Translations under genes and position numbers: made by a program
The notes under the pieces: model-generated
Databases searched by the model: none
What the model was told of the DNA's origin: nothing
What the model saw: only the letters and a program-made list of their open reading frames with translations
Shown here: in pieces, positions 794-29,177 of the stretch
Numbering within the stretch: the stretch's first letter is position 1
Layout of the letters: every line of letters begins with the position of its first letter
Virus record (IMG/VR): IMGVR_UViG_3300020109_000029
Span: 1-51,875 of that record
Direction: 5' to 3' (one strand)
Length of the DNA: 51,875 nt
From: a virus

Positions 794-1005
794 TGGTCGT
801 TATGCCCGAAGTCATGACGCCAGAGATGGAGCGCGTGTGGCGCGACGCTTGGGTCAATCAAGCCTATCGCCGTCGCGGTAGCGGTCCCGTTGGCAACACC
901 CGCCGTATCAAGAACCCGGAAAGCTGTGAGCAGTTCGCCTACCGCGCCCTTCGCAAGCACATTGCGGAGACGCAAGGCGCTGCAGCCCCGTCTGTTCAAG
1001 AGCGG
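762..1005 (+). repeat. Duplicated gene-junction cassette (762-781 and 986-1005)
   Basis: The 20-mer CCCCGTCTGTTCAAGAGCGG occurs at 762-781 and again at 986-1005. Each copy encodes APSVQER at the end of one gene and is followed by a G-rich ribosome-binding stretch and the ATG of the next gene. A diverged relative (CTCTGTTCAAG) lies at 420-430 before the ATG at 455. The copies carry the stop/start region of successive genes, so they look like duplicated translation-coupling modules. Confidence 0.75.
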
Positions 1006-1020
1006 AGGGCTGGGGAATGA
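793..1020 (+). CDS. Small basic early protein, unknown
   Basis: A 75-residue protein starting at ATG 793 (TGATG overlap). It is basic and probably helical, with MERVWRDAWVNQAYRRRG near the start and a second Arg/Lys-rich stretch later (YRALRKHIAETQ). No family recognised; the charge would allow nucleic-acid contact. Its 3' end is the second copy of the repeated junction cassette, and it overlaps the next ATG by four bases. Confidence 0.55.
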   Translation: MVVMPEVMTPEMERVWRDAWVNQAYRRRGSGPVGNTRRIKNPESCEQFAYRALRKHIAETQGAAAPSVQERRAGE

Positions 1021-1397
1021 GCGACCTGATCGAACGACTGGAGAAGGCCGAAGCTGGGTCAGTGCCGCTGGATTGCGAAGTCGTGCGGCAGTTCGGCTAT
1101 CACGTTCCTGAGGGAACTTGGCAGGGGTGGCACGATCCCGACGGAAACCACATTGGCCTTCCGCCAAAGGTCACCACCTCCCTAGACGCTGCCCTGGCTC
1201 TGGCTGAGCGGGTTCTGCCAGGCCACGTCTTCTACAGCATCGATCACATGGCGGTGATCAATCTCCGCAACATCTGCGTCGCGCAAGTGTCGGGCGAGGC
1301 GGACGGCTGCGCCGGGGAGGGTGAGGCCGCAACCCCCGCCCTCGCTCTCTGCATAGCCATTCTTCGCGCCGCCAAGGCTCAGGGAGCCGAGGCATGA
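1017..1397 (+). CDS. Phage ABA-sandwich-like early protein
   Basis: A 126-residue protein with an N-terminal helix MSDLIERLEKAEAGS, then alternating strands and helices including WHDPDGNHIGLPPKVTTS and LDAALALAERVLPG, and a C-terminal helix LALCIAILRAAKAQ. This layout resembles small proteins annotated as phage ABA sandwich domain, common in early regions of phages of Gram-negative bacteria; their function is not known. ATG 1017 overlaps the previous stop by four bases and follows a strong GGAGGGCTGGGG stretch. The family assignment is by resemblance. Confidence 0.6.
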   Translation: MSDLIERLEKAEAGSVPLDCEVVRQFGYHVPEGTWQGWHDPDGNHIGLPPKVTTSLDAALALAERVLPGHVFYSIDHMAVINLRNICVAQVSGEADGCAGEGEAATPALALCIAILRAAKAQGAEA

Positions 1398-1672
1398 CCC
1401 CTCGCCCCCTGATGCAAGCCGCCCTCAAGGCGGAGGAAGCCGCTCACCTCCTGACCCTGGCCCAAGCCTACGCCGGAAGGCCGGAACAGGAAGCCTACAT
1501 CCGAAAGGCCCAGGCCCTTCTCCGCGAAGCCGATGAGCTTGCCCAGCAGGCCCAGGAAGCCGCCGACGAAGCCTCTATGGCCGACCACGAGAAGTGGTGG
1601 GCGGGCCGTCAAGCCAATTCGTCCCTGCTGAACCCGGCAGGACACCACCAAAATCAGGAGATTGCAGCGTGA
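1394..1672 (+). CDS. Small helical early protein
   Basis: A 92-residue protein rich in Ala, Glu and Gln. Residues 5-60 form a nearly continuous amphipathic helix or short coiled coil (ALLREADELAQQAQEAADEA). No domain recognised. It overlaps its upstream neighbour by four bases and its downstream neighbour by four (GTGA), so it is co-translated with them. Confidence 0.5.
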   Translation: MTPRPLMQAALKAEEAAHLLTLAQAYAGRPEQEAYIRKAQALLREADELAQQAQEAADEASMADHEKWWAGRQANSSLLNPAGHHQNQEIAA

Positions 1673-1920
1673 CTGAAGTGTCCGAAGAAAAGATCGCCCG
1701 CGACAAGGCCGCCGTAGATGCAATGCGCAATGCCAAATCCAACATGGATGCGGCTTTGGCCCGTATCTCGACGCTTGAAACAGCGCTGGCCTACGCCCGC
1801 GATAATCTAAGCCGAGTGAAAGGCTACATCAGCCCGAACGTCTACACCTACGGCGCTCAGGGCACCGTCCACGCGGCCATCGACGACATGATCGCCCATG
1901 CGGCGAAGGCGCTCGGCTAA
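1669..1920 (+). CDS. Small early protein, GTG start
   Basis: An 83-residue protein. GTG 1669 is chosen because AGGAG lies 8 bases upstream (1657-1661) and the GTGA overlap with the preceding stop is the recurrent junction type. The frame is open further upstream, but nothing supports an earlier start. The protein begins MTEVSEEKIARDKAAVD and continues with long helices; predicted coiled coil, function unknown. Confidence 0.55.
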   Translation: MTEVSEEKIARDKAAVDAMRNAKSNMDAALARISTLETALAYARDNLSRVKGYISPNVYTYGAQGTVHAAIDDMIAHAAKALG

Positions 1921-2126
1921 TGTCCCGCCCCTACGACCAAACCCTATCCTCCGACGGGGTCTATTACGCCTCTCGCCGGACGAATGAGCACAACGGGGCT
2001 GGCTGGGATTTTCGGCCTGACCGCGTCCGCTCTCGCTGGACCTTCCGTGACTGGGACTGCGCCTGCGCTCTGGTCATCACCATTATCGTCGCTGTCGCCA
2101 GCGCCTTTGCTTTCGGGGTGGCGTGA
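1920..2126 (+). CDS. Small single-span membrane protein
   Basis: A 68-residue protein with a polar, Arg-rich N-terminal half (residues 1-47) and one hydrophobic segment at the extreme C terminus (about 48-67, ALVITIIVAVASAFAFGVA). This is the topology of a tail-anchored inner-membrane protein. The start shares one base with the upstream TAA and the stop overlaps the next ATG. Early membrane proteins of phages often act on the host envelope or exclude other phages, but nothing here shows which. Confidence 0.5.
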   Translation: MSRPYDQTLSSDGVYYASRRTNEHNGAGWDFRPDRVRSRWTFRDWDCACALVITIIVAVASAFAFGVA

Positions 2127-2449
2127 TGGACCTGTCTCAGTTCTACCGTGACGACCACGCCGACGAGTTCGAGGTGACCGTCGAGGTTCGCGCCACGGTC
2201 ATAGAAACGGTGAAGGCCGCGACCGAAGAAGAGGCGCGGACGATCATCGAAAAGCGTCTCGATGACCGCGACCTCGATGTCTATGGCCCTGACATTTGGC
2301 AGGCCGACATCAGCTCGTGCCGACGCCCGGCGACAATCTACCTGATTACGCGCCCCGGAACCACGATTAGCGGCACCTCACACCCTCAGCCGGGCGACCT
2401 GCCGCGTGATCCGAAGCCGTATGAGACGGCTTGGAGGCCAGCGCCATGA
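2126..2449 (+). CDS. Small early protein, unknown
   Basis: A 107-residue acidic protein; ATG 2126 is preferred over GTG 2123. Residues 10-50 have a strand-helix-strand pattern (FEVTVEVRATVIETVKAATE then EEARTIIEKRLDDRDLDV) similar to small phage beta-alpha proteins. The C-terminal 30 residues are Pro-rich. It overlaps the next start by four bases. No function assigned. Confidence 0.5.
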   Translation: MDLSQFYRDDHADEFEVTVEVRATVIETVKAATEEEARTIIEKRLDDRDLDVYGPDIWQADISSCRRPATIYLITRPGTTISGTSHPQPGDLPRDPKPYETAWRPAP

Positions 2450-2700
2450 CCCCCGCTCAATCTCAATCCTCAACTGCCAAGGCGTCGGACCGGGCCAGTA
2501 ACCCGGCCGGCGAGGCAGTCGAATACGCCCGCGTCGAGAACGGCCAGATCATCCTCATGCTGGATGGCCGGATGCAGCGGGTCCGGCAAGGCACGGCCTG
2601 GGGAGAATGGCTCTCCGCCGTGACCTCGCCCTTTCCATCCACTCAGGAGCGCGCCCGGCAGATCAGGGCCGCGCTCGAAGAGACGGGGTTCTATCAGTGA
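2446..2700 (+). CDS. Small early protein upstream of the annealing protein
   Basis: An 84-residue protein. ATG 2446 is preceded by TTGGAGG at 2431-2437. The first 25 residues are Ser/Ala/Gln-rich, and residues 30-55 look like two beta strands (EYARVENGQIILMLDGRMQR). It lies directly upstream of, and is translationally coupled to, the recombination protein, which suggests a role near recombination; that is context only. Confidence 0.45.
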   Translation: MTPAQSQSSTAKASDRASNPAGEAVEYARVENGQIILMLDGRMQRVRQGTAWGEWLSAVTSPFPSTQERARQIRAALEETGFYQ

Positions 2701-3347
2701 GCTTCACCCCTGAACAGAAGGCGGCGCTCCAGGCACCTTTGAGCCAGGCGCACGTCGCCTCCCGTCAACAGGCGGGCCAGACCCTGTCCTACGTCGAGGC
2801 GTGGCACGTCATTGCCGAGGCCAACCGCATCTTCGGCTTCGACGGCTGGGCGCGCGAGACGATCGACCTGCGCCAGCTTGGCGAGCCGAGGGAGAAAGAC
2901 GGCAAGTTCCGCGTCGGCTATTCGGCCCGTGTCCGCGTGACTGTGACGGCCGGCGACCGTGTTGTGGTGCGCGAGGGGTGTGGCTTCGGCCAGGGCATCG
3001 ACCGCGATCCCGACCAGGCCCACGAAAGCGCACTCAAGGAAGCCGAGAGCGACGCCATGAAGCGCGCGCTGATGACCTTCGGCAATCCCTTCGGCCTGGC
3101 GCTCTACGACAAGAGCAAGGCGAACGTGGCCGAGGTCGGCAATGCCGCCGTGGACTTCGCCATCGGTCAGCTCCGCTGCTGCAAGACCGGCGACGAGTTC
3201 AAGGACTTCTGGGCCAAGAACAAGGATGGCCTGAAAGAGCAACTGACCCCGCGCGAATACGCGACGGTCGTCACGGCCATGCAGGAGGAGGCCAAGCGCT
3301 TCGCTCCGCCGGCCGAAGAACCCACCCCATTCGACAAGGCCGCCTGA
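2697..3347 (+). CDS. Rad52/Rad22-like single-strand annealing protein
   Basis: A 216-residue protein starting at GTG 2697 (GTGA overlap). Residues 18-130 carry the Rad52-fold signature: LSYVEAWHVIAEANRIFGFD, GWARETIDL, a beta hairpin with RVRVTVTAGDRVVVREG, GCGFGQG, then the helix AHESALKEAESDAMKRALMT and FGNPFGLALYD. Proteins of this fold form oligomeric rings on single-stranded DNA and promote annealing, the role RecT or Red-beta plays in other phages. SSB, a coiled-coil protein and NinB follow immediately, so this is the phage recombination module. The C-terminal 70 residues are variable and probably bind partners. Confidence 0.9.
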   Translation: MSFTPEQKAALQAPLSQAHVASRQQAGQTLSYVEAWHVIAEANRIFGFDGWARETIDLRQLGEPREKDGKFRVGYSARVRVTVTAGDRVVVREGCGFGQGIDRDPDQAHESALKEAESDAMKRALMTFGNPFGLALYDKSKANVAEVGNAAVDFAIGQLRCCKTGDEFKDFWAKNKDGLKEQLTPREYATVVTAMQEEAKRFAPPAEEPTPFDKAA

Positions 3348-5754: not shown

Positions 5755-6195
5755 ATGACTAGCCCCCATTCCGGCCAGACGGCCTCCATAGGCGACCACC
5801 AACTTTCTTTCACCAACAGAAGAGGAGCGGAAAGCCACGACCCGCGCGCGAAAGCGTCTGGGTGTGATCAGGGAGGGGGCGTCGTCACGCTTGGCGGCTC
5901 CCCCGCTGTTCAGACCGGCGTGGGCTTCCTTCTGAGGTCCGCCCATTCTGCACGCGGGACCGGCGCGATCCACGGCCACACCTACGAAGTCGTTTGCTGG
6001 TTTCCGGCGGGAGACGACGCTGAAGAGTTGCAGGCGAAGTGCGAACGGTCTTGCGCGGACCTAGACCACGCAATCCTTCCGGAAGAACTGGCCTGGGCTG
6101 AAGCCCTGGTCGCCGAAATCATGCGCCGCACCGGAGCAGAAGACGTCGAGATCAGACGGCCCCTTGAGCGTCTTTACGCGAGGCCGCGCCGATGA
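5755..6195 (+). CDS. QueD-like T-fold protein (6-carboxy-tetrahydropterin synthase family)
   Basis: A 146-residue protein. With start ATG 5755, residues 62-146 match the QueD/PTPS T-fold: SAH (His 64) and HGHTYEV (His 73 and 75) supply the three zinc ligands, LDHAIL (104-109) is the conserved Asp-His, and RRPLERLYA carries the substrate Glu. The catalytic Cys normally found just before HGH is absent (TGAIHGH), so it may not make 6-carboxytetrahydropterin. Residues 1-57 are low-complexity, and GTG 5920 would give a 91-residue protein starting at the fold itself. It overlaps the DpdA-like gene by four bases, pointing to a shared 7-deazaguanine role. Confidence 0.7.
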   Translation: MTSPHSGQTASIGDHQLSFTNRRGAESHDPRAKASGCDQGGGVVTLGGSPAVQTGVGFLLRSAHSARGTGAIHGHTYEVVCWFPAGDDAEELQAKCERSCADLDHAILPEELAWAEALVAEIMRRTGAEDVEIRRPLERLYARPRR

Positions 6196-6966
6196 CCGAC
6201 CTCCTGTTCTATCCCGGCACCCACCAGGTCGGCGACGCCAAGCACTTCGACCGCGTCTGCATCAGCCGTAATCGCCTCGTCGGGCGCAAGAAGCCGGTCG
6301 AGTGCGACGATGTCCTGCTCGACTGCGCCGGGTTCACGACCATCGAGAAGCACGGTGGCTATCCGCACCCCCCGGAAGAGTGGGCGCGCGAGGTGCATCG
6401 CCTGAACTCGAACGGCATCCTCAAAATCACCGTCGTCGTGGCACAGGACTACATGTGCGAGCCCTGGATGCTCGCCAAGACCGGCCTGACGATCGAAGAC
6501 CATCAGCGCCTCACAATCGGCCGCTTCGACGCAGTCATTGCCGAACTGCACCGTCTCTACGATGGGCCGCCGCCCTTCGAGGTCATGCCGGTTCTGCAAG
6601 GCTTTGCGATCAGCGATTACCTTCGCCATATCGAAATGTATGGTGACCGCCTCACCCCCGGCATGTGGGTTGGCGTCGGCTCTGTCTGCAAGCGCCAGGG
6701 CGACCCGGCGATCATCGAGGACTTGCTTCTAGCCATTGCAGGAGTGCGGCCGGACCTCCGGCTGCACGGCTTTCGGTGTGAAGCTGACGGCACTCCGCAG
6801 TCCCATCGTTCGCCGGCTGCTCTACAGCGCGGACAGCATGGCCTGGTCCTTTGCAGCTCGGAAGCAGGGCCGCGACGGCAACGACTGGCGCGAAGCCAAG
6901 GCGTTCGAGGCGCGCGCTCTCGTCCCCAGTCGCGAGCCCGAGCAACTGCGATTGTTCTCGGCATGA
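6192..6966 (+). CDS. dpdA: DpdA-like DNA 7-deazaguanine transglycosylase, read through a +1 frameshift
   Basis: The first 194 codons encode a TGT-like barrel related to DpdA (MTDLLFYPGTHQ, LLDCAGFTTIEKHGGYPHPP, PVLQGFAISDYLRHIEMYG, WVGVGSVCKRQGDP, LRLHGF). DpdA enzymes exchange guanine in DNA for a 7-deazaguanine such as preQ0, protecting phage DNA from restriction. After GGC TTT at 6768-6773 the family sequence continues only in the +1 frame (GVKLTALRSPIVRRLLYSAD, ending EQLRLFSA at 6966), giving 257 residues. Unshifted translation runs to 7016 with an Arg/Ser-rich end. Either a one-base insertion or programmed +1 shifting on TTT CGG is involved. Confidence 0.75.
6771..6777 (+). promoter_or_regulatory. 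Candidate +1 ribosomal frameshift site in the DpdA-like gene
   Basis: The zero-frame codons are TTT CGG, and slipping one base forward gives TTC with GGT next, restoring the conserved HGFGVKLTAL reading. tRNA-Phe (anticodon GAA) pairs better with TTC than TTT, which favours the shift. The arrangement resembles the UUU CGU site of the influenza PA-X +1 shift. No stop codon sits in the A site. A simple sequencing or mutational insertion of one C is the alternative. Confidence 0.45.
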
Positions 6967-7012
6967 TCTCCACCAACAAACAGGTGGCCCCGCAAAGCGG
7001 CGGAGAGGGGCG

Positions 7013-8530
7013 ATGAAACCCAAGCTCCTCGACCTTTTCTCAGGCATCGGCGGCTTCAGCCTGGGCCTTGAGCGCGCAGGCTTCGAAACCGTGGCGTTTT
7101 GCGAGATCGCACCGTCGCCTCGTCACCTTCTGGCGACTCACTGGCCGAACGTCCCCTGCTTTGAAGACATCACGACGCTGACCGCTGAAATGGTTGGGCC
7201 TGTCGACGCAATCTGCGGCGGCTTCCCCTGTCAAGACATTAGCTTCGCCGGGAAGGGGGCGGGTTTGGCCGGCGAGCGCTCCGGCCTCTGGAGAGAATAT
7301 GCACGATTGGTTCGCGAGCTACGACCCCGCTACGTCATCGTGGAAAACGTCGCAGCGCTCCTTGGTCGAGGACTTGGAGACGTTCTCGGAGACCTGGCCT
7401 CGCTCGGGTACGATGCGTGGTGGGATTGCATACCAGCTTCCGCCGTTGGCGCCCCTCACCGCCGCGACCGGCTCTGGATTGTTGCCTACCCCGGAGGCGA
7501 GCAACACGAAGGCTACGGCGATGCGCTCCGGAGGGAGATCGCCGCGGGACTTTCTCGCGCCGCTGCCCTCGTGGCCCACACCGACGGCAATGGACGGCCG
7601 GCGCGGGAACAAGCCCCCGAGACCGTGGGATGCGGGAGTCTATTTGCCGCAAGCGGTAGCGATGTGGCCCACGCCGCGAGCGACAGACGGCTCAAAGGGC
7701 GGTCCAAACCAGAGAGGCAGCAAGGGCGACCTTGCCCTGCCGGCGGCGGTGCATCGCTGGCCTACTCCGACGTCCAGCATGGCGAAGGGGTCGTCTCCGG
7801 CGTCACTGACGAGGAAGGACGGACAGGACCGTTCGAACGATCGGTTGGACCACGCCATGCAGGCCCGCGAGGGCAGTGGTCAGCTGAACCCGACGTGGGT
7901 CGAACTCTTGATGGGTTTTCCCGCTGGCTGGACGAAACCTATGGAGACCCGGAAGCCCATAAGGTAATATTGGCTTATGCCAATGCCTCGGAGGCCGGAC
8001 CCCGAAAAGCACTGCGAGACCTGCGGGACCGCATTCGTGCGGAAGATGACCGGCGGGCGGCTGGAGGACCGGTCAGTGTTTCTCCGTCGGAGGTTCTGTT
8101 CGCTTTCGTGCGCGAACACGCGCGGCGAGCTGAAGAAGGGCTCACATCACTGGAGGGCGCGGCGCCACCGTCTGACGGCGTGCGAAGCCTGCGGGGAACG
8201 AAGGGCGCTGCACGTCCACCACTGCGACCAGGACGAGACGAACAACGAGCCGGCGAACCTTCAGACCCTCTGCAAGTGGTGTCACAACTTCTGGCACGCC
8301 ACGCAGAAGCGGCTTGGATTGCCTATCGCTGGCCGGATGCCCGCGCTTCGCAGCCTTGGGTCCACGGATGGGAAGACGGGGTCGGCCGCGTAGCGACCGC
8401 AGTGCCGGCCCGCGTCGACAAGCTCCACGGGCTGGGAAATGCCGTGGTTCCACTCATCCCGGAAATCCTAGGCAGAGCCATCCTAGCCGCACAGGAATCC
8501 ATCACCACCCCCCAATCGAGAGCAGCCTGA
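7013..8530 (+). CDS. C5-cytosine DNA methyltransferase with an internal HNH insertion
   Basis: A 505-residue protein; ATG 7013 follows GGAGAGGGG at 7002-7010. Visible motifs: I (DLFSGIGGFSLGL, 7-19), IV with catalytic Cys (GFPCQD, 70-75), VI (ENV, 111-113), VIII (RRDRLW, 150-155), and at the far end IX/X (VPARVDKLHGLGNAVVP, ending at about 480). A segment WSAEPDVGRTLDGF near 290 and another HGWEDGVGRVATAVP near 455 belong together in related enzymes but are separated here by about 140 residues, where an HNH gene lies in the +1 frame. The methyl frame stays open throughout. It would modify phage DNA against restriction. Confidence 0.85.
   Translation: MKPKLLDLFSGIGGFSLGLERAGFETVAFCEIAPSPRHLLATHWPNVPCFEDITTLTAEMVGPVDAICGGFPCQDISFAGKGAGLAGERSGLWREYARLVRELRPRYVIVENVAALLGRGLGDVLGDLASLGYDAWWDCIPASAVGAPHRRDRLWIVAYPGGEQHEGYGDALRREIAAGLSRAAALVAHTDGNGRPAREQAPETVGCGSLFAASGSDVAHAASDRRLKGRSKPERQQGRPCPAGGGASLAYSDVQHGEGVVSGVTDEEGRTGPFERSVGPRHAGPRGQWSAEPDVGRTLDGFSRWLDETYGDPEAHKVILAYANASEAGPRKALRDLRDRIRAEDDRRAAGGPVSVSPSEVLFAFVREHARRAEEGLTSLEGAAPPSDGVRSLRGTKGAARPPLRPGRDEQRAGEPSDPLQVVSQLLARHAEAAWIAYRWPDARASQPWVHGWEDGVGRVATAVPARVDKLHGLGNAVVPLIPEILGRAILAAQESITTPQSRAA
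7194..7967 (+). CDS. Overlapping +1-frame protein nested in the methyltransferase gene
   Basis: A 257-codon frame lies wholly inside the methyltransferase gene. It contains SYDPATSSWKTSQRSLVEDL, ETWPRSGTMRGGIAYQLPPL, repeated LPTPEAS/WPTPTAMDG/WPTPRATDG/WPTPTSS units and LNPTWVELLMGFPAGWT. From memory, proteins with this motif set are widespread in phage annotations next to or over cytosine methyltransferases, without known function. ATG 7194 is the first start; ATG 7299 with GGAGAG at 7290-7295 is an attractive alternative giving MHDWFASYD. Because the DNA is GC-rich, long chance frames are common, so the motifs, not the length, are the evidence. Confidence 0.5.
   Translation: MGLSTQSAAASPVKTLASPGRGRVWPASAPASGENMHDWFASYDPATSSWKTSQRSLVEDLETFSETWPRSGTMRGGIAYQLPPLAPLTAATGSGLLPTPEASNTKATAMRSGGRSPRDFLAPLPSWPTPTAMDGRRGNKPPRPWDAGVYLPQAVAMWPTPRATDGSKGGPNQRGSKGDLALPAAVHRWPTPTSSMAKGSSPASLTRKDGQDRSNDRLDHAMQAREGSGQLNPTWVELLMGFPAGWTKPMETRKPIR
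7977..8393 (+). CDS. HNH endonuclease embedded in the methyltransferase gene
   Basis: A 138-residue protein with two zinc sites and a clear HNH core: CETCGTAFVRK and CSLSCAN (residues 13-45), then CEACGERRALHVHHCDQDET, NNEPANLQTLCKWCHNFWH (69-107). The catalytic HH, Asn and final His are all present. It is in the +1 frame of the methyltransferase, nine bases after the stop of the overlapping frame at 7967, and ends inside the region encoding methyltransferase motif IX. It looks like a homing nuclease that landed in the variable region without closing the host frame. Confidence 0.8.
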   Translation: MPMPRRPDPEKHCETCGTAFVRKMTGGRLEDRSVFLRRRFCSLSCANTRGELKKGSHHWRARRHRLTACEACGERRALHVHHCDQDETNNEPANLQTLCKWCHNFWHATQKRLGLPIAGRMPALRSLGSTDGKTGSAA

Positions 8531-26922: not shown

Positions 26923-29177
26923 CGCAGGCTATAGCGATCTGCACGGGCCATATCGGCCGGGACGGTCTGACGGGCGCCCTGATAGGCGCCTTGGCTGTAG
27001 CTCTGGGCCATCGGAGCCGCCCTCCCATCGACGTAGGCGTTGAAGCGGTCGTCGTTGACGCCGACGGTGACCATGACGCGCTGGGCCGCGGCCGAAGCGA
27101 CGGACGCGAGACCCGACCCGAAGGAGGGGAGGGACAGCCCCCTGAACCCGCCCGAGAACATGTTCCCGAGCCCCGACAGCCCGGCGGAGAACAGCCCCCC
27201 GAAGCCGCCCCCACCCGCGCCCTGGCCGGACTGACCGAACAGAGCATTGGCGAGCGGCTCAGTGATGCCGCGCCGCACCGAGATCGACAGCAGATCGGCG
27301 AGGATCTGCTTGGCGACGTTGGAGAAGACCTCGCCGAGGGAGCGGGTGTTCATGATCGCGTCGACCAGGCCCTCATTCAGGCTGTCGAGGCCACGGGCGG
27401 CGATGCTCTCGTAAGCCTCGCGGACCTCCGCCGCCGACTTCAGTGAGGCGTCGCGCCACTGATCCAGCGGCCCCATATTACGACGATTGGCCGCCGCTGT
27501 TTCCAGCTGATTGATCCTGTCGTTTGTGGCCAGCGCCGCAGCGCGCTGTTCGGGTGTCAGGGACGGATTGCGATCGAGTTCAAGCTGAAGCGCCGCACGT
27601 CGCTGGCGTTGGGTTATCTCAAGCAGTTCGAGTTCGAGGCGCCGGCGCTCTTCTGCCGTGCGAGCTGCGCCTACCTGAAGGGACACCAAGTCCGCCGTGA
27701 GGCTCGAAAGTAGCCGCTCATTGGCTAGTCGTTCGTCTTGAATCTCGCGGAATGCGGTGTCTGCCAGCACCCGATCTTCAAGAGCGTCGGCTTCAGCGTG
27801 AGCCGCCTCAAGCGCTCGGCGCTCGGCATCGTTGATCTCGCCTCGCGTTGCTTTGCTCTCGATCTCTGCATCCCGTGCCTGACGATCCATATCCAACTGC
27901 TGCTGGGCGAGGTCGAACCGCTGTTGGGCTGTCAGTTGCTCTTGGTCGACTACATCGAGCAGCCTTTGCCGGGCGCGGAAGATTTCCTGCTCTACTCTCT
28001 CGGCACGCCTTGCCTCCCGTTCTGCCTCCCGATCAGCGCTGTTAACCGCTCGGCGGGACCGCGTCCGTTCTGGGGGCAGGATGAGCCGGCGCCCGCTGCC
28101 GTCTTCCACTCCCCGGTCTGCACCAGCTCCGCGCGCAATGCTTGCCCTCGCGCGCTCGGCGATCTCGGCATTGACAGCGTCCAGCTGTCGCTGCGTGTTA
28201 ATCGCCTGGTTTCGGACAGCAACGGCATCCGCCCCGCCGAATCCCGGCCGGTTCATCGCGGCGAGATTTGCGGTGAGTTGGCTCTGTAGCCGGGTGCTGG
28301 CTGCAGCGAGCCCGGCGTCGCTCTTCTGATCTGCACTCCGGATGCTGTCGGCTAGATTGCCAAAAGCTCGGGCCAGCTTCGACACCAGATCAAGCAGACC
28401 GAGAAGCACGGGCGCGAGGTCTACCAGGGCGCTCTTCAGTTGGATGTCGATGATCTGGGACAGGTCGTCGAACTGCTTCTGGGCCTGAGAGGCCCGACGA
28501 ATCAACTCGGCGTCCATGACGAAGCCGAGCGAGATTGCCTCATCTCTTAGCCGGGCTACCTCCTCACTTCCGACGGCCAGGGCGCCAGAGAAGGCATCCA
28601 GGCCGAGCCGATCGGCAATAGCAGCACGATCAGCGGCGCTTCCTAACTCGCCGATCCGGTCGATGACGTTCTCAAGGCCCTCCTCGACCGAGCCAAATCC
28701 GCGAAGGTCTTCGGGCTTGAAGCCGAGCGACCGAAATGAGGCCAATGACTCTTTGTCCAGTCCTGACGCCGCGCCGGCCAGCTTGCGGCCGAAACTATCG
28801 AGAGATCGGTCGGCGTCGGCTGCATCACGCCCGGTGGCCTTCGCTACAGCTCTGAACTCCTGCAGGGCGTCGGTCGATACGCCTACCCGCTTCGCAGCGT
28901 CCGAGATGTCGTCCGCCATGCGAAGTGCGGCGAAAGAGAATTCGAATGCGCTCTTTGCGGCGAGGGCGATGACCGCCGCTACGGCAAGAAAGCCGACCTT
29001 CAGTTGTGCTGCGATGCCGCCTAGACCGGTCCCAATGTTAGACCCTGCGTCATTGAGGTCGCGCTCCGCCCTACCGGCAGTCTGTTTGATGTCTCTTTCA
29101 GCGGCGTCGAGGTCGCGCTTTAGCTGATCGCGGGACGCACGCAGTTCGAACTCGGCCGAGCCGATTACGTCAGACAT
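26919..29177 (-). CDS. Tape measure protein
   Basis: A 752-residue protein; ATG 29177 is preferred over the TTG three bases upstream, with GGAGAG just before. Long heptad stretches alternate with hydrophobic segments: ELRASRDQLKRDLDAAERDI, KVGFLAVAAVIALAAKSAFE, and a long Arg/Glu/Gln coiled coil around 380-560. The C-terminal part is Gly-rich (GAGGGGFGGLFSAGLSGLGN). It sets tail length and crosses the envelope at infection. At about 1.5 angstrom per residue it predicts a tail of roughly 110 nm. Confidence 0.9.
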   Translation of the reverse strand: MSDVIGSAEFELRASRDQLKRDLDAAERDIKQTAGRAERDLNDAGSNIGTGLGGIAAQLKVGFLAVAAVIALAAKSAFEFSFAALRMADDISDAAKRVGVSTDALQEFRAVAKATGRDAADADRSLDSFGRKLAGAASGLDKESLASFRSLGFKPEDLRGFGSVEEGLENVIDRIGELGSAADRAAIADRLGLDAFSGALAVGSEEVARLRDEAISLGFVMDAELIRRASQAQKQFDDLSQIIDIQLKSALVDLAPVLLGLLDLVSKLARAFGNLADSIRSADQKSDAGLAAASTRLQSQLTANLAAMNRPGFGGADAVAVRNQAINTQRQLDAVNAEIAERARASIARGAGADRGVEDGSGRRLILPPERTRSRRAVNSADREAEREARRAERVEQEIFRARQRLLDVVDQEQLTAQQRFDLAQQQLDMDRQARDAEIESKATRGEINDAERRALEAAHAEADALEDRVLADTAFREIQDERLANERLLSSLTADLVSLQVGAARTAEERRRLELELLEITQRQRRAALQLELDRNPSLTPEQRAAALATNDRINQLETAAANRRNMGPLDQWRDASLKSAAEVREAYESIAARGLDSLNEGLVDAIMNTRSLGEVFSNVAKQILADLLSISVRRGITEPLANALFGQSGQGAGGGGFGGLFSAGLSGLGNMFSGGFRGLSLPSFGSGLASVASAAAQRVMVTVGVNDDRFNAYVDGRAAPMAQSYSQGAYQGARQTVPADMARADRYSLR

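Follow-up and report, generated by a model that had tools for sequence, protein, structure and literature searches.

Does the long second frame that runs inside a phage DNA methyltransferase gene encode a protein of its own and, if so, what does that protein do? The window, i.e. the whole stretch of DNA analysed (a 51,875-base virus record), contains a cytosine-5 DNA methyltransferase gene at 7013–8530 and an ORF at 7194–7967 in the +1 frame relative to this gene. The methyltransferase frame, open from the ATG at 7013 to 8530, is referred to as alpha, and the second frame (alpha+1) as beta; their features are listed in Table 1. The ORF of 257 aa carries SYDPATSSWKTSQRSL, four PTP units, and LNPTWVELLMGFPAGWT, i.e. 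the motif series that an earlier note on this DNA had quoted for the frame is present. The start of the methyltransferase gene is overlapped by a DpdA-like gene (7-deazaguanine DNA modification; Pfam DpdA, E 1.6e-28; window 6192–7016 and 6736–6966), the C-terminal part of which carries on in another frame from about 6770 (CGGCTTTCGGTG); this gene looks frameshifted through sequence error or mutation.

Table 1. Features of the alpha/beta locus in the window
Feature	Position	Strand	Description and basis
Alpha	7013..8530	+	Cytosine-5 DNA methyltransferase, predicted catalytic subunit, 505 aa; motifs I–VIII and X, without IX
Alpha motif IV, GFPCQD	7220..7237	+	Sequence; reference point for relative positions
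Probable beta start, GGAGAG (7290–7295) and ATG (7299–7301)	7290..7301	+	Sequence; onset of lowered alpha-synonymous change
Beta	7299..7967	+	222 aa, alpha+1; predicted target-recognition/motif IX subunit; PHROG match, shuffle test, codon-position test, alignment with contiguous methyltransferases
Beta N-terminal domain, SYDPATSSWKTSQ...WPRSGTMRGGIAYQLPPL	7299..7480	+	Overlaps alpha motifs V–VIII; constraint in both frames
Beta PTP units, LPTPEAS, WPTPTAMDG, WPTPRATDG, and WPTPTSS	7482..7790	+	Predicted target-recognition region
Beta motif IX, LNPTWVELLMGFPAGWT	7884..7934	+	Sequence; PDB matches of the profile are C5 methyltransferases only, aligned there
HNH endonuclease ORF	7977..8393	+	Shares the frame of beta but not that of alpha; phrog_1271, E 9e-13
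Second IX/X junction copy, alpha version VGRVATAVPARVDKLHGLGNAVVP and motif X	8381..8452	+	Beta frame closed by a stop

In the window gene alone, the openness of beta has a P value of 0.02 when the codons of alpha are shuffled synonymously, a modest surprise in a GC-rich gene. For this reason, relatives were collected, among the matches listed, by the non-overlapping part of alpha only (7013–7297), a query that cannot directly favour an open beta; matches to this upstream part are present in at least 599 stretches of viral contigs. Of 79 loci with GC contents of 0.40–0.70, 77 have a +1 frame that runs without a stop for at least 100 codons, counted from the position at which the window frame starts; none has such a +2 frame. 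The two exceptions are a locus in which the contig ends (L189) and one with a single in-frame stop, in which both halves of beta are still recognizable (L172). In the less GC-rich relatives L175, L144, L173, and L014, zero shuffles remain open as long as beta. With a beta profile trained on other, alpha-derived loci, the window frame scores 193 bits; 1000 alpha-synonymous shuffles with identical alpha protein and codon usage average 40 bits and never exceed 90. In each of seven genes (the window and six others), none of 1000 shuffles reaches the beta score (z 8.6–12.7; 12.7 in the window).

The substitution pattern changes along the gene accordingly. Among relatives pre-filtered for a beta motif (WPRSG-like; the openness counts given above are unfiltered), the synonymous divergence of alpha is mostly 0.5–0.7 up to 25 codons past motif IV, with its lowest value (0.43) around PCQ, and falls from 0.65–0.70 to 0.24–0.5 from codon 26, which is the position of the window's ATG 7299. 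At codons 56–61 past motif IV, the third position of alpha, which is the second position of beta, is the least variable of all. Comparison with the five nearest kin revealed changes at 38–52 of 90–94 alpha third positions in 7013–7298 but at only 1–13 of 61 in 7299–7480 (Fisher p 1.6e-10 to 1.7e-4); against L010, for example, the counts are 46/94 upstream and 3/61 in 7299–7480 (Fisher 1.3e-9), and the four other kin are similar. In a codon-position test on pairwise, beta-anchored alignments of relatives, the third position of beta varies most in the PTP region (0.62 vs 0.48 and 0.45) and in the motif IX region (0.36 vs 0.19–0.20), whereas beyond motif IX the third position of alpha varies most (0.40 vs 0.16–0.17). 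These patterns indicate that both frames are coding at about 7299–7480, mainly beta at 7480–7940, and alpha again afterwards.

Could the +1 frame be a mere shadow, conserved in appearance only through a conserved, GC-rich alpha? Alpha motifs V–VIII are strongly conserved, some beta motifs fall on conserved alpha residues, and openness in the window by itself is the modest surprise mentioned above. Shuffles that keep alpha exact nevertheless never attain the beta score, in codons 56–61 past motif IV the third position of alpha is the most conserved one, and the beta pattern dominates in the target-recognition domain (TRD); moreover, some beta homologues are ORFs across which no alpha-type frame is open, and others share their frame with motifs IV and X within contiguous enzymes (described below). 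We assign a very small probability to a shadow frame: the codon-shuffling and codon-position tests reject it, and only gross errors in the alignments could rescue it. On the decisive evidence of the family, beta is a protein frame under selection.

The earlier note had proposed that a long region is dual-coding and that the second frame is not open by chance, and had named closure of the frame by stops in relatives as an observation that would speak against it; the counts of open frames and the shuffles bear out the proposal. Its further suggestion that both frames are under constraint, to be checked by synonymous-site analysis, holds only for about 7299–7480, because substitutions follow beta only at about 7480–7940 and alpha only past the end of beta; the coding constraint also begins at about 7299 and not at 7194. 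The zero-frame sequences VAHTDGNGR and WSAEPDVGR, cited there as methyltransferase sequence, are present as the same bases as WPTPTAMDG and the motif IX region but show no strong constraint of their own. The alpha sequence VAHTDGNGR only seems conserved because its DNA also encodes WPTPTAMDG in beta, and both zero-frame sequences look like shadows of beta.

Alpha shows the features of a cytosine-5 methyltransferase, i.e. motifs I, IV (PCQ), VI (ENV), and VIII in order and a catalytic-domain fold, and matches Pfam DNA_methylase (E 8.8e-40) and phrog_363. Its similarity to M.HhaI and M.HaeIII extends through motif VIII only: phmmer aligns M.HhaI with residues 4–159, and Foldseek (E 1e-12 to M.HhaI/M.HaeIII) covers about 162 residues on M.HhaI. 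In the AF2 model, pLDDT is 85–98 for residues 1–160, 30–50 over residues 200–297 and 380–470, and 87–96 in the motif X helix; the model of alpha is thus confident for the catalytic core and for the motif X helix, and the region between them is disordered. Motif X is located in alpha in 74 of the 79 loci, while motif IX is found in alpha in none and in beta in 53. In a one-chain C5 methyltransferase, motif IX and the TRD lie between motifs VIII and X of the same polypeptide; here, their absence from alpha and presence in beta point to a split form rather than a one-chain member.

Beta carries motif IX (LNPTWVELLMGFP; LNPTWVELLMGFPAGWT), which has no counterpart in alpha. A PDB search with the beta profile returned three matches, weak (E 0.14–0.87) but all to C5 methyltransferases and all aligned at motif IX. 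The clearest link between alpha and beta, as judged by alignment, is L082, a contiguous single-frame methyltransferase of 436 aa: alpha residues 8–160 align with its residues 39–220 (E 1e-28), beta residues 89–247 with 237–394 (E 4e-16), and alpha motif X (467–480) with 403–416. Thus placed, the WPTP segment of beta sits at the position of the TRD of the contiguous relative. A second contiguous methyltransferase, L076, aligns in the same manner; in both enzymes, the TRD and motif IX of beta are in frame with motifs I–VIII and X, and the beta unit PTPRATDGSKGGPNQRGSKGDLALPAAV is near-identical to theirs. The database search that the earlier note had suggested for this frame gives a match to phrog_1008, 'DNA methyltransferase' (E 1.4e-36), and relatives of beta were found in 361 phage records. 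The note's statement that the motifs are widespread in phage proteins was correct as to spread, but the protein is not one of unknown function: by these alignments, it is the TRD/motif IX part, missing from alpha, of the same cytosine-5 methyltransferase. Taken together, the alignments argue that alpha and beta are two parts of one enzyme, the alpha frame giving the catalytic core and the beta frame the part that probably recognizes the target.

Beta might instead be a separate regulator or anti-restriction protein that merely overlaps the methyltransferase gene and stands outside the enzyme. The N-terminal domain of beta (SYDPxTSSW...WPRSG) has no recognized fold and the model of isolated beta is poor (AF2, pLDDT 61, pTM 0.27), which speaks for this alternative. 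We nevertheless consider it quite improbable, given that beta holds the motif IX missing from alpha, that its TRD and motif IX are joined in frame to the remaining motifs in L082 and L076, and that the beta ORF also holds motif X in phage Samy, L024, and L047.

The start of beta was examined with the same relatives. As the earlier note had suggested, ATG 7299 behind GGAGAG is probably the start in the window, on the basis of the local sequence and the onset of constraint; a conserved start codon was rejected, as ATG occurs at that codon in only 12 of 65 relatives and is local to the window's branch, and a few relatives lack ATG, GTG, or TTG near that point. The beta start thus differs between relatives. 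In most of them, the open frame of beta reaches well 5' of the region under constraint. The unconserved start codon and this upstream openness are also what would be seen if beta were reached by programmed ribosomal frameshifting, yielding a fusion of alpha (motifs I–IV) with beta and not a separate subunit. Such a product would, however, be devoid of motifs V–VIII; inspection by eye revealed no conserved slippery sequence near the onset of constraint, the good GGAG-ATG of the window sits exactly at this onset, and standalone second beta ORFs exist. Frameshifting is, in our assessment, unlikely, and internal initiation at ATG 7299 is taken as the most likely origin of beta in the following.

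We consider it highly probable that the locus encodes a naturally split C5 methyltransferase whose subunits share DNA, with catalysis and motif X contributed by alpha and the TRD and motif IX by beta in one assembled enzyme. Alpha would fold as the catalytic domain, with AdoMet binding, the PCQ motif, and ENV, and would supply motif X from its far C-terminus, while its middle, which encodes the recognition region of beta, would be mainly a tolerated linker. Beta would provide its N-terminal segment together with motif IX and the target-recognition region that contains the WPTP units. Once assembled, the two proteins may act as a single enzyme that methylates phage DNA at a specific cytosine site, and this methylation would probably protect the phage DNA from host restriction.

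Alpha and beta most likely form a heterodimeric enzyme like M.EcoHK31I, a YGGCCR cytosine-5 methyltransferase of two polypeptides. The smaller polypeptide of EcoHK31I is, as Lee et al. reportedly described in 1995, coded in another frame inside the gene of the larger one; in the window, likewise, beta (7299–7967) is coded in another frame inside 7013–8530. Both split and overlap would therefore already have a precedent in M.EcoHK31I, as far as its overlap is as reported. M.EcoHK31I is also the experimental precedent for a two-polypeptide C5 methyltransferase (PMC3404938; PMC3439449), with motifs I–VIII and X in the larger polypeptide and motif IX in the smaller one (PMC3404938). The window has the same distribution, with motif IX only in the small subunit, the likeness being one of motif layout. 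The TRD of EcoHK31I has been assigned to the large subunit, whereas the substitution pattern and the contiguous relatives place that of the window in beta; also unlike EcoHK31I, the arrangement in the window is spread over hundreds of phages and contains a mobile HNH insertion. M.AquI, a two-polypeptide enzyme for CYCGRG, is split after motif VIII into a catalytic subunit and a TRD/IX subunit (PMC3404938). Motifs IX and X both lie in the small subunit in L004, L024, and L047, and the M.AquI layout is shared by L024, L047, and phage Samy, in the last three of which the beta ORF holds both motifs; the window differs from M.AquI in having motif X in alpha and beta nested inside the alpha gene.

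Other layouts were found among the relatives. In several Streptomyces loci and a plasmid of Ca. Megaera, +1 still encodes the PTP region but motif IX belongs to the alpha frame, and the division of labour between the frames is thus not uniform. The Ca. Megaera polyxenophila plasmid (L221, 1239–2267 and 1552–2082) has dual frames in a stretch of 36% GC, with PTP in +1 and both IX and X in alpha. Even when the alpha frame encodes the PTP region together with IX and X, a short +1 ORF keeps the N-terminal domain of beta (WNPxxxxWE...PYSETLPTSGMTRSG) over alpha motifs VI–VIII, namely in phage Babsiella (L006, 1777–2280 within 966–3281), L076 (2636–3037), and L082 (2732–3016). Two loci contain a second beta-type ORF after the first (L047, 3749–4549; L097, 3668–4537), each of which has an N-terminal domain, PTP units, IX, and X of its own, and the alpha-type frame is not open across either of them, which implies that beta can be a separate polypeptide. 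The gene content of these loci suggests that a single catalytic subunit is served by two specificity subunits. Methylase genes that adjoin or overlap each other are present in phages Samy, Andrew, and Sebastisaurus, and the annotated methylase genes overlap in Andrew, Sebastisaurus, and Babsiella. In phage phiBT1 (L201; NC_004664.2, 27120–28137), gp9.1 (27120–27620) bears the annotation DNA methylase with the remark 'may be inactive', and this annotation covers the motif I–VIII part only; the beta-type ORF region (27415–28137), which is 53% identical to the second beta of L047, extends beyond gp9.1 and is unannotated. Beta of the window matches the group named 'DNA methyltransferase' in PHROG (1008) and 'DNA methylase domain protein' by SEA-PHAGES, of which Babsiella gp55 and Samy gp50 are members or relatives. 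In the records examined, these names do not describe a TRD and motif IX subunit, and some genomes, such as that of phiBT1, leave the beta ORF without annotation.

The HNH ORF of the window starts 9 bases past the stop of beta, in the frame of beta. The window has two IX/X junctions, one on either side of the HNH ORF, whereas kin without HNH have one. In the 5' copy, motif IX of beta is kept and the VGRVAxGVPxRVD of alpha is lost; in the 3' copy, the alpha version and motif X are kept and the beta frame contains a stop. A homologous HNH is located at the same place in L156 (82 identities over 128–129 aligned residues), where the 3' copy still reads EWLMGFPLGWT in the beta frame; among the few loci compared, the element is present in the window and L156 and absent from the nearest kin, L008–L011. 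A different HNH is found in L023, with its ATG directly after the TAG of beta (TAG ATG), and in L137 a LAGLIDADG-type endonuclease ORF (AAGLIDGEGCIS) lies in the beta frame directly before the N-terminal domain of beta, between alpha motifs IV and VIII and inside the open alpha frame. In L012, the ends of beta and alpha are partly separated where alpha terminates: a short stretch of the junction is duplicated there, and no HNH ORF accompanies it. This may be the scar left when an element was lost, or else an intermediate.

The ShiLan domain (PMC11855218) is comparable: it is an HNH endonuclease hidden out of frame within the methylase of a mycobacteriophage. In both cases, an HNH lies in another frame of a methylase gene, the host frame has no stop, and the start of the insert resembles the sequence just 3' of the insert. 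The ShiLan host ORF has a DPPY motif (amino-methyltransferase type), by which membership in the family of alpha, a cytosine-5 enzyme, was rejected; unlike ShiLan, the window repeats the terminal part of the hidden beta gene, and its HNH follows beta in the same frame. We favour, with some reserve, a reading in which homing endonucleases exploit the hidden gene: the HNH would have inserted within alpha at the 3' end of beta and brought its own copy of the motif IX end of beta, leaving beta intact upstream while alpha reads through to the original copy with motif X, so that the overlap is split and each junction copy decays in the frame in which it is not needed. If this is true, the insertion is a natural experiment showing both frames to have been required.

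No description of a phage alpha/beta overlap was found in the literature searched, which lay mostly outside subscription papers. As far as that literature shows, what is new is how widely the arrangement is spread among phages, that the substitution pattern places the TRD in beta, and that homing elements lie at the ends of beta. Overlapping-frame coding of two parts of one enzyme is rare among characterized systems, and here it would characterize a very large family. Because annotation usually retains one frame, many phage methylases would be recorded incomplete. If our reading is true, alpha cloned alone would be a dead enzyme that co-expression of beta should rescue, and beta would be the unit that sets specificity, with two betas per alpha at some loci (L047 and L097).
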